Source of the DNA: an uncultured Granulosicoccaceae bacterium
GTDB taxonomy: Bacteria > Pseudomonadota > Gammaproteobacteria > Granulosicoccales > Granulosicoccaceae
Assembly (NCBI GenBank): GCA_937927895.1
Contig: CALGKA010000039.1
Span: forward strand, 1-64,000
Length of the DNA stretch: 64,000 nt
Reading direction: 5' to 3'
The position numbers and the translations under genes are program-made. Positions 9,825 through 18,069 of the stretch are shown here, one piece after another (the stretch's first letter is position 1; every line of letters starts with the position of its first letter). A model generated the notes under the pieces. The model had not been told where the DNA came from. It saw only the letters and a program-made list of their open reading frames with translations, and did no database searches.

Positions 9825-11381
9825 ATGACTGAAGCTAAACGCCCTTCCCGCAGAGGCGCGCGGGCTGCAAAAAAAGCCCAACGCGCAGCACCGTTAGCCG
9901 CCCATGAGCGTGCAGTTAACCCAGGTATGTCGGGTGGTCGCTTTGCTCCACTAAGCGATTTAGACGTCGGCAAAATCAATGATGCAGTAATGGACGTTCT
10001 CGAAAACGTCGGTTTGTCTCAGGCACTTCCAAGCTGTGTAGATGCGGTAAAAAAAGGCGGTGGCATCTATAAGAATGACCGACTACACTTTCCAAGGTCC
10101 CTCGTTGAAGACACCATTGCCAACTGCGCACGTGGCTTCACACTGCACGGTCAGTCAGAAGAACACGATATTCAAATCAGTGATTCCAAAATGTATTTTG
10201 GCACCGCTGGAGCGGCGGTACATATAGTTGATGTTGAAAACCGTGAGTATCGCGAATCGACCCTTAAAGATCTCTACGATATTGCTCGTATAGTAGATCA
10301 ATCTGATCACATTCATTTTTTCCAACGGTCTATTGTTGCGCGCGACATGATAGAACCTGCTGATCTTGATCTGAATACACTCTATGCATCTATTAGCGGT
10401 ACTAGTAAACACGTAGGCACCAGTTGGGTGCTGCCGGAACACGTTGATGAATCTTTAAAATTACTTCATCAAGTTGCAGGCTCAGAACAAGCATGGCGCG
10501 ATCGACCGTTCGTTTCGATGTCGTGTTGCTTTGTTGTGCCACCATTGCGCTTTGCGGAAGATGCCTGTGCCTGCCTGGAATCTGCAGTACACGGTGGTAT
10601 GCCGGTGCTACTACTATCAGCAGGACAAGCAGGAGCAACCAGCCCTGCTGCCATTGCAGGCTCCGTCGTACAAGCAACGGCTGAAGTACTTGCGGGGCTT
10701 GTATACGTTAACCAGTTAAAGCCTAAGCACCCTGCTATTTTCGGTACCTGGCCCTTTGTATCCGACCTACGCACCGGTGCCATGAGTGGCGGCAGCGGTG
10801 AACAAGCCATTCTAATGGCCGCTTGCGGCCAAATGGGTCGCTACTACGATTTACCGACAGGTGTAGCCGCAGGGATGGCAGATGCCAAACTACCGAATGC
10901 ACAATCAGGCTATGAAAAAGGTTACACAGTGACCTTGGCTGCACACTCAGGCGCTAACATGATTTACGAGTCCGCGGGTATGCACGCAAGCCTACTAGGT
11001 GCATGCCTTGAGAGTTATATCATTGATAACGATATGCTGGGTGCGATCAACCGTACTGTTAAAGGCATTGAAGTAAACGATGAAACACTCTCTATTCAAA
11101 CCATGCGCGATGTCTGCATAGACGGCCCACTACACTACCTTGGCCACCCGCAAACTATGGAGCTCATGCAGTCAGAGTATTTATACCCGGAGATCGGCGA
11201 TAGAAACAGCCCCAAGGAATGGCAGGAAAGAGACAAACCCAAACTACTGGTTGAAGCCCGCAAACGTGTCGATCAAGTGTTAAGCAATCATTTCCCGGCG
11301 CATATCAATGATAAAACGGATCAGCAATTACGGGAAAACTTTACTATTAAGCTTCCACGTGAAGTGATGACTAAAAGCTAA
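9825..11381 (+). CDS. Trimethylamine methyltransferase (MttB) superfamily protein, non-pyrrolysine
   Basis: 518 residues. A basic N-terminal tail (about 1-30) leads into the MttB TIM-barrel, with recognisable segments LENVGLSQALPSC, YFGTAGAAVHIVDV, SCCFVVPPLRF, GTWPFVSDLRTGAMSGGSGEQ and YESAGMHASLLGACLE. There is no in-frame TAG, so this is one of the pyrrolysine-free homologues. Characterised members demethylate quaternary amines such as glycine betaine, but many are unassigned. No cognate corrinoid protein is encoded in the window. The downstream bidirectional terminator closes the transcript. The exact substrate is unknown. Confidence 0.85.
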   Translation: MTEAKRPSRRGARAAKKAQRAAPLAAHERAVNPGMSGGRFAPLSDLDVGKINDAVMDVLENVGLSQALPSCVDAVKKGGGIYKNDRLHFPRSLVEDTIANCARGFTLHGQSEEHDIQISDSKMYFGTAGAAVHIVDVENREYRESTLKDLYDIARIVDQSDHIHFFQRSIVARDMIEPADLDLNTLYASISGTSKHVGTSWVLPEHVDESLKLLHQVAGSEQAWRDRPFVSMSCCFVVPPLRFAEDACACLESAVHGGMPVLLLSAGQAGATSPAAIAGSVVQATAEVLAGLVYVNQLKPKHPAIFGTWPFVSDLRTGAMSGGSGEQAILMAACGQMGRYYDLPTGVAAGMADAKLPNAQSGYEKGYTVTLAAHSGANMIYESAGMHASLLGACLESYIIDNDMLGAINRTVKGIEVNDETLSIQTMRDVCIDGPLHYLGHPQTMELMQSEYLYPEIGDRNSPKEWQERDKPKLLVEARKRVDQVLSNHFPAHINDKTDQQLRENFTIKLPREVMTKS

Positions 11382-17471: not shown

Positions 17472-17660
17472 TGTCGCTCCTGTGGGTTATTGCCCGCAGC
17501 GAAATTGCCACTGGACAAGGAGATACCTGTAAAGGTAACTCCCAATTATATCACAAGGCAGGCAACAGGCAAATTCCCATTACAGCCCAAGCCCCCCAAA
17601 CACCCCTAAAATCAGGAATATGTACAAAGGTTGTTACCTATGTCACCCGACAACGCTTGC

Positions 17661-17703
17661 TTTGTTTTTTGAAATCTTCCGAAATCGGGGCACATGGATG
17701 TGC
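17661..17703. repeat. Partial copy of the GAAATCTTCCG repeat with small palindrome
   Basis: TTTTTTGAAATCTTCCG (about 17665-17681) matches the left arm of the larger element at 17846. It is followed by GGGGCACAT and the inverted GCACAT-GG-ATGTGC (17690-17703). It looks like a truncated or diverged copy of the same repeat family. Confidence 0.6.
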
Positions 17704-17845
17704 TGGATCAGCAAGTAAGCGTCTTTTTGTTCCAAAGTCAGGAGCACATCGACAATTCAAGAATCACACTGACACGAGCGCGCAAACTCAAAGACCCCTC
17801 TAAACCACCTGAGCGTCGCGAACCCCCACCCGAGCGTCTGTTGTG

Positions 17846-17953
17846 TTTTTTGAAATCTTCCGGAGTGGGGTCAAAGCGCCAGGGATGGCGCTTTGAGCGC
17901 GGTGCACATCCAAGTGCATACCGCGCGACCCCACGGAGGATGATTTCAAAAAA
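17846..17953. repeat. Branched inverted-repeat element (outer stem enclosing two hairpins)
   Basis: The outer arms are TTTTTTGAAATC...GTGGGGTC (17846-17872) and GACCCCAC...GATTTCAAAAAA (17927-17953): 20 of 27 positions pair, with mismatches only in the central TTCCGGA/GGAGGAT part. Inside are hairpin A, TCAAAGCGCCA-GGGA-TGGCGCTTTGA (17871-17896, perfect 11-bp stem), and hairpin B, GCGCGGTGCAC-ATCCAA-GTGCATACCGCGC (17897-17926, 11 pairs with a 2-nt bulge). The whole 108 nt can fold into a three-way junction as DNA cruciform or RNA. It resembles REP/BIME-like mobile palindromes, but the family is not identified. Confidence 0.8.
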
Positions 17954-17990
17954 TGGCGCAGCCACCCAAGGGCACAACATCCGCGAAAAA

Positions 17991-18069
17991 CACTTTTGGT
18001 TACTTTTCGTGTTTTGAAAAGTGACTCGTAGCGCCAGGGACTGGCATCGAAACACCGCCATGGATGGCG
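17991..18069. repeat. Run of three small palindromes (REP-like)
   Basis: CACTTTT (17991) pairs with AAAAGTG (18017-18023). Then come GCCAG-GGA-CTGGC (18033-18045) and CGCCAT-GG-ATGGCG (18056-18069). The CCAGGGA and CCATGGATGG phrases echo hairpin A of the preceding element, so this is probably part of the same repeat mosaic. Confidence 0.65.

Follow-up and report, generated by a model that had tools for sequence, protein, structure and literature searches.

A dispersed branched palindrome upstream of rpsF in a Granulosicoccaceae bacterium resembles the TwoAYGGAY RNA family and may offer paired CsrA sites

CsrB/CsrC and RsmX/Y/Z, RNAs with several GGA-loop hairpins, are each encoded by a single sRNA gene that has its own promoter and terminator, and ERIC is an intergenic palindrome of about 100 nt that occurs in either orientation. 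A third comparison is offered by TwoAYGGAY (RF01731), an Rfam family in clan CL00106, shared with the E. coli CsrB. Its function is a computational guess, namely CsrA binding, predicted from motif matches according to the parts of the source at hand (PMC4333381), and the available sections of two other reports give ANGGAN as the hexaloop of RsmE/CsrA sites (PMC7652899; PMC3791407). Among titles and the opening lines of abstracts, with subscription papers thinly covered, we found no description of TwoAYGGAY or of CsrA sites as a dispersed repeat. Here, we analyzed 64,000 nt of contig CALGKA010000039.1 from an uncultured Granulosicoccaceae bacterium (the window), which contains what is best called a worn and partly degenerate copy of a TwoAYGGAY-type element that has expanded in this lineage.

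The earlier note had described a branched inverted repeat of 108 nt upstream of rpsF, and its arms, two hairpins and junction were all confirmed (17846-17953). The outer-stem arms (17846-17872 and 17927-17953, both on the + strand), recovered by an inverted-repeat scan, are 27 nt long, 85% complementary, and separated by 54 nt; they pair in RNA and DNA foldings alike, both of which produce the three-way junction. The 108-nt element had an MFE of -69.8 kcal/mol as RNA (z = -8.0) and -44 kcal/mol as DNA (z = -8.4); in neither case did any of 200 shuffles fold as well. Hairpin 1 of the fold (hp1; 17871-17896, +) carries the hexaloop C[AGGGAU]G at 17881-17886, an ANGGAN loop of the CsrA/RsmA type. 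Hairpin 2 (hp2; 17897-17926, +) has a small bulge and the loop ATCCAA at 17908-17913, instead of the ANGGAN, mostly ATGGAT, found in 51 of 61 own-genome copies; on this loop comparison, the hp2 site is lost or flipped in the window copy.

Several further parts lie around this core. To its right follow a small hairpin, TGGC-GCA-GCCA, with a C-GNA-G triloop (17954-17964, +), whose stem covaries between copies (helix 7), and a GTTACTTTT...AAAAGTGAC hairpin plus TCG (17999-18028, +), a motif also present in 3 other genomes among 369. The palindromes that had been noticed as echoes after the element are genuine and correspond to hairpin 3 (hp3; GCCA-GGGAC-TGGC, 18033-18045, +), with GGA within its loop, and hairpin 4 (hp4; CGCC[AUGGAU]GGCG, 18056-18069, +), with an ANGGAN loop; comparison of right flanks places both within the same element in relatives. 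The partial second copy placed some 180 bp away is also real: a repeat scan detected a 5' outer arm with a GCAC[AUGGAU]GUGC hairpin attached to it (17658-17703, +), with 17658-17692 showing 83% identity to 17839-17873, 181 bp apart, and running into the ATGGAT-loop hairpin at 17690-17703. At the window copy, the site is retained in hp1, hp3, hp4, and the hairpin of the partial copy, but not in hp2. The element exceeds 108 nt, measuring about 230 nt in type A, the window's type, and about 500-650 nt in type B of the same genome. Within the window, the covariance model R1 described below was significant only for the 17846-17953 copy and its reverse echo. Frames of 107, 110, and 129 aa that cross the element were taken as probably spurious.

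The copy sits in the gap between rlmB and rpsF, upstream of the promoter-like site of rpsF. Both genes read leftward, so the + strand of the element is antisense to them. The promoter-like site (TTGCCT-16-TATAAT; 17545-17572, - strand), set in a sequence context that relatives G007 and G008 share, is left intact by the element; a promoter of the element's own was considered and dismissed, as this rpsF site is the only good promoter-like site. The gap measures 683 nt here versus 124-253 nt in 11 same-genus relatives, none with a model match there (a twelfth relative, L077, is cut off and stands outside the 11). With no element at this position in these relatives, a comparison of the gaps indicates that it was most likely inserted after the split from them. 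Neither ends shared with an autonomous IS nor target duplications were found, and at the element-free rlmB-rpsF sites of relatives the flanks are too diverged for insertion ends or a target duplication to be read. With one loop lost and the remaining sites antisense to rlmB-rpsF transcription, the window copy is probably inert or nearly so and of little consequence for rpsF.

To place this copy, we searched its own genome (4.55 Mb, 168 contigs) by nucleotide similarity and found at least 40 places better than E 1e-22, the majority being about 115 nt long with 77-93% identity (best 40 of 84 candidates). R1, built from 43 hand-chosen copies (alignment A1, with truncated and some own copies left out), gave 86 matches, about 60 of which are real places, while about 25 are, for the most part, weak echoes of the palindrome on the reverse strand; after alignment of the own-genome loci, 61 copies passed a stricter threshold. 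The further copies that the earlier note proposed to look for are therefore present, and its proposal of a REP/BIME-like dispersed family holds. Across the family, 15 of 48 genomes matched R1 at E <= 1e-6: 13 of the 14 genus members, with 2-60 matches per genome, one genome of genus g5 (4 matches), and one of genus g4 (1 match). An exact pattern search of named genomes returned 57 stretches, of which 54 were from Granulosicoccaceae, 1 was from Granulosicoccus, and 2 were labeled Chromatiales MAG. Multi-copy dispersal and lineage-specific presence at rlmB-rpsF are thus clear, and the best reading of the element is a REP/BIME-like repeat expanded in a Granulosicoccaceae genus, within a wider TwoAYGGAY superfamily of Gammaproteobacteria. 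Plasmid or phage carriage was rejected because neither the core nor the right module had a match in plasmids or phages; there was also no plasmid match for the branched palindrome of locus L215, described below, and one exact TwoAYGGAY-type pattern gave 0 matches among viral contigs.

Copies also vary in make-up. Type B own copies (such as L207, L012, and L018) carry variable numbers of short GC-rich units right of the core (GCCGCCGGCAGGGCATGC... / GCCGTCCGCAGGACAAG...) that are locus-specific, and type A copies in relatives continue into tandem units of the GAGCGCAGCGAA type or the like. One subfamily is defined by an insert of about 14 nt on the 3' side of hp2 (around CATAGTTGACAATAATGG), common to many own copies (among them L016:537-681, L024, L034). 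Another subfamily, more diverged and scoring about 70-80 bits with R1, has the hp1 loop CAGGACG and lies near full copies in relatives, as at L052:458-589, L048:1975-2107, and about ten A4 loci.

The branched fold, on comparative evidence, is evolutionarily maintained. In A1 (MAFFT, 43 copies), 96.8% of cells were paired and 18 of 39 pairs changed on both sides, with a covariation score of 0.236 versus 0.111 in shuffles, and no more than 0.045 when partners were slid. Among 43 distant copies, in a model-fitted alignment, 35 of 39 pairs changed on both sides (0.841 versus 0.182 shuffled). Alignments A2-A5 were all fitted to R1, which rewards GGA loops and structure, and A3 (genus genomes) and A4 (MAGs) overlap, their genomes being partly the same. 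Departures from pairing on the + strand were far more often G.U than A.C: 68 versus 10 cells in A1 (hand tally, constant end pair excluded), and 151:34, 81:5, and 169:8 in A2, A3, and A4, respectively, counts that include the constant terminal G.T pair (54, 27, and 62 cells). This excess indicates that folding is maintained on the + strand. A structured RNA had been the other suggestion of the earlier note, and the strong covariation found by covariance modeling agrees with a family of that type.

Conservation is stronger in the loop motif than in the stems, which covary. Pairwise diversity in A1 was 0.047/0.554/0.092/0/0/0.590 along the hp1 loop and 0/0.512/0.047/0.092/0/0.176 along the hp2 loop, both reading A-N-G-G-A-N. 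The inner hairpins thereby retain C[ANGGAN]G on a single strand, where the two N positions vary freely, and position 2 is often G, outside AYGGAY. Exact ANGGAN was present in hp1 of 50/61 and hp2 of 51/61 copies in the own genome, 27/29 and 27/30 in the genus genomes, and 52/70 and 67/74 in the MAGs. For the right side, we hand-listed the flanks of all 61 own copies, 30/31 A3 matches, and 41/74 A4 matches; 125 remained once truncated and identical flanks had been removed, and a regular expression assigned 39 of these to type A. These 39 add two more GGA hairpins. The hp4 loop is ATGGAT or AGGGAT in most of them, departing in three copies (ATGTAT, AGGCAC, and ATGGTT), and its stem covaries, switching among GCC/GGC, GGC/GCC, and ACC/GGT. 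Conservation of the ANGGAN hexaloop on one strand and in two hairpins, joined by two GGA hairpins in type A, is thus evident from the alignments. In L067 and L099, a different hairpin of A-tract/T-tract type stands in place of hp4 (AAATCGA-CAGGA-TCGATTT in L067), still with a GGA loop and with the look of an intrinsic terminator.

These loops and the strand asymmetry point to recognition of a single strand by a GGA-loop binder, of which CsrA is the known one. At the level of the family, at least two predicted ANGGAN hairpin sites per RNA are present, as looked for in CsrA/RsmA binding. Twelve of the 43 distant copies, from 4 of 22 genomes, matched the 12-nt CsrA SELEX consensus RUACARGGAUGU at 12/12 positions, whereas the reverse strand reached at most 9/12 and shuffles never 12. 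A csrA gene was found in 13 of 14 genus genomes; the exception, G009 (87% complete), has 14 copies and no csrA match. We would put binding of the element's + strand transcripts by CsrA at about an even chance.

The element extends well beyond the genus. R1 at E <= 1e-3 found weaker relatives in 22 other genomes among 369 in the class, from 18 other genera and 18 other families, versus about 0.4 genomes expected by chance if the rough E-values were exact; 9 candidates were scored per genome, so that these copy numbers are minimum values. An ANGGAN hairpin with a stem of at least 3 bp occurs at least once in all 43 aligned distant copies and twice in 31, counts that are not independent evidence because R1 rewards GGA loops; the outer arms, taken up below, are a different case. 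The C-G closing pairs are nearly invariant (43/43 and 42/43). Two copies lie in opposite orientation at 5 of 38 distant loci, and such TwoAYGGAY-type pairs in one stretch, in BIME fashion, were seen in L232, L233, L237, L249, and L265. A separate pattern search found the GTTACTTTT...AAAAGTGACTCG module in 3 other genomes; in L215, a branched palindrome with AGGGAA in the loop of its first hairpin adjoins this module, and a second copy exists in the same genome.

Several sister copies passed the Rfam gathering score for TwoAYGGAY (RF01731; 43 bits), namely L207 (57.0), L055 (54.3), L070 (52.2), L012 (51.0), L009 (49.3), L010 (47.7), L051 (45.5), L061 (44.4), L185 (44.4), L056 (43.3), and L071 (43.0), while L060, L068, L067, and L069 fell below it (42.1-37.5). 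Copies passing from the own genome were 2 of 2 in a first batch (L009 and L012) and 3 of 10 in a second (L010, L185, and L207), and those from genus relatives were 4 of 9 and 2 of 5, respectively; L053 and L215 in the first batch and 15 of 20 sources in the second gave no match. Distant copies above the gathering score came from L236, L232 (two), and L230. The window copy itself had no match at E up to 10; it has the outer stem and two hairpins, with loops AGGGAU and AUCCAA. Strict membership of this copy is therefore not reached by score. The "not explained" of the earlier note was only partly right, because sister copies pass the Rfam cutoff for TwoAYGGAY. Matches to Rfam sX7, sraL, Ysr224, and miRNA families were far below their gathering scores and were taken as chance.

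The element shares with TwoAYGGAY the long outer stem, two inner hairpins, and ANGGAN terminal loops, but it is dispersed in about 60 copies and has extra hairpins (hp3 and hp4) or flanking modules. Several GGA-loop hairpins are also common to it and CsrB/CsrC or RsmX/Y/Z; unlike those genes, with their own promoter, terminator, and fixed locus, it occupies about 60 loci without regard to orientation, and no conserved promoter or terminator belonging to it was seen. Like REP/BIME elements with RAYT, it is dispersed, palindromic, extragenic, located 3' of genes, and sometimes in inverted pairs, with 0 of 61 own copies inside a predicted gene; it is, however, longer and branched, and it lacks both a RAYT association and a conserved GTAG tag, the tag before hp3 in type A copies being GTAG in 14/39 and GTAC in 18/39 by a simple regular expression that misplaced two or three rows. 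As a palindrome of about 100 nt between genes in either orientation, it also recalls ERIC/MITE-type elements, and no half-element pairs around an ORF, as in MITE/IS-like arrangements, were noticed among the own-genome matches.

Copies lie mostly at gene 3' ends, are neutral in orientation, and avoid genes and divergent promoters, like REP/BIME. The 61 own copies were convergent in 14 cases, tandem sense in 8, tandem antisense in 10, and divergent in 1, while the end of a contig or locus left 28 open; the 43 distant copies were convergent in 11, sense in 13, antisense in 14, divergent in 1, and open in 4, and two lay inside a predicted ORF. Gene calls here were by simple ORF scoring, with paired copies within one gap counted apart. 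Gene spacing in the distant genomes is often <60 nt, which leaves no room for a separate sRNA gene. The RayT-type transposase that the earlier note proposed to look for did not track the copies: half of the 14 genus genomes lack Y1_Tnp, two of these seven holding as many as 30 and 42 copies, the element is missing from the genome that has 14 Y1_Tnp matches, and no R1 match lies near the own genome's three Y1_Tnp places (C127 twice, C13). REP with RAYT was therefore rejected as a general explanation, the GTAG tag not being conserved either.

Neutral orientation, tight spacing, and the lack of a promoter point to a DNA repeat. Reconciled with the loop evidence, they lead to a mobile, REP-like dispersed TwoAYGGAY lineage whose + strand transcripts would offer paired CsrA sites, a reading, drawn from sequence comparison, that we consider roughly evenly balanced between right and wrong. 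Under it, the element would spread as DNA by a non-autonomous route, its + strand would be transcribed by read-through from the neighboring gene, and the paired GGA loops in that RNA might be bridged by a CsrA/RsmA dimer; copies would then act as 3'-end CsrA-binding modules, and some 60 loci may sum to a CsrA sink. A cis-acting RNA should be biased in orientation, so the tandem counts (8 sense versus 10 antisense own, 13 versus 14 distant) speak against an RNA role, and the missing element promoter and terminator, the lost loop of the window copy, and G009 without csrA speak against CsrA. The main rival is a purely DNA-based account, possible but somewhat doubtful, in which the + strand folds as single-stranded DNA and is recognized by a candidate single-strand transposase or nuclease through the ANGGAN loops, the C-GNA-G triloops, and the junction, by analogy with TnpA-REP and REP, the likeness to CsrA sites being a coincidence. 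Dispersal, 3'-intergenic placement, avoidance of divergent promoters, orientation neutrality, and the inverted pairs at 5/38 distant loci all suit it, as do the strand-specific features, which fit one-strand processing, and the C-GNA-G hairpin, which is unusually stable in DNA. Loop bases also matter for some TnpA-REP, according to the accessible part of one study (PMC8266576). However, Y1_Tnp is missing from half of the genus genomes, some of them copy-rich, and abundant in a copy-free one, and this account leaves the loop's agreement with the CsrA consensus, free N included, and the whole SELEX site in 12/43 distant copies to chance.

Conservation of the loop weighs against two further explanations. 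A structural element that ends transcripts or protects mRNA 3' ends both ways, its loops mattering little, would account for the very stable fold and the placement at gene ends, often <60 nt from the stop codon and convergent in 11/43 distant and 14/61 own copies. We regard it as improbable, since the loop motif is better conserved than the stems, the T run of the window-type arm lies 5' and its A run 3', an order that suits an intrinsic terminator on neither strand, and a terminator scan found none inside the branched core. A neutral, decaying repeat, whose compensatory changes come from templated correction between palindrome arms without selection, would fit the outer arms of 14 distant copies from three genomes, which are long and nearly perfect yet differ between copies of one genome. 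It explains neither the loop conservation, slow loop evolution being already indicated by the A1 diversity, nor the C-G closing pairs and the excess of G.U over A.C, and appears highly improbable.

What is added here to the description of TwoAYGGAY is its occurrence as a dispersed, orientation-neutral repeat of up to about 60 copies, widespread in Gammaproteobacteria, with loops that follow the full ANGGAN rule and not AYGGAY, which makes an RNA role versus a DNA-mobility role directly testable. If CsrA binds, a mobile repeat would be distributing the binding sites of a global regulator. A bolder extension, which we think rather unlikely, is that a mobile repeat with CsrA docking pairs spread through the genus as a distributed CsrA sink, with sites gained and lost at gene ends, and that TwoAYGGAY as a whole is a mobile CsrA-coupled element and not a fixed cis-regulator.

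Elsewhere in the window, Rfam PYLIS_3 (pyrrolysine insertion sequence, mttB) matched 10875-10974 with 65.6 bits, inside an ORF at 9825-11381 (+) of 518 aa that is trimethylamine methyltransferase-like by the Rfam name alone. No in-frame stop occurs across the match, which therefore looks like coding-sequence similarity in a putative non-pyrrolysine MttB relative.
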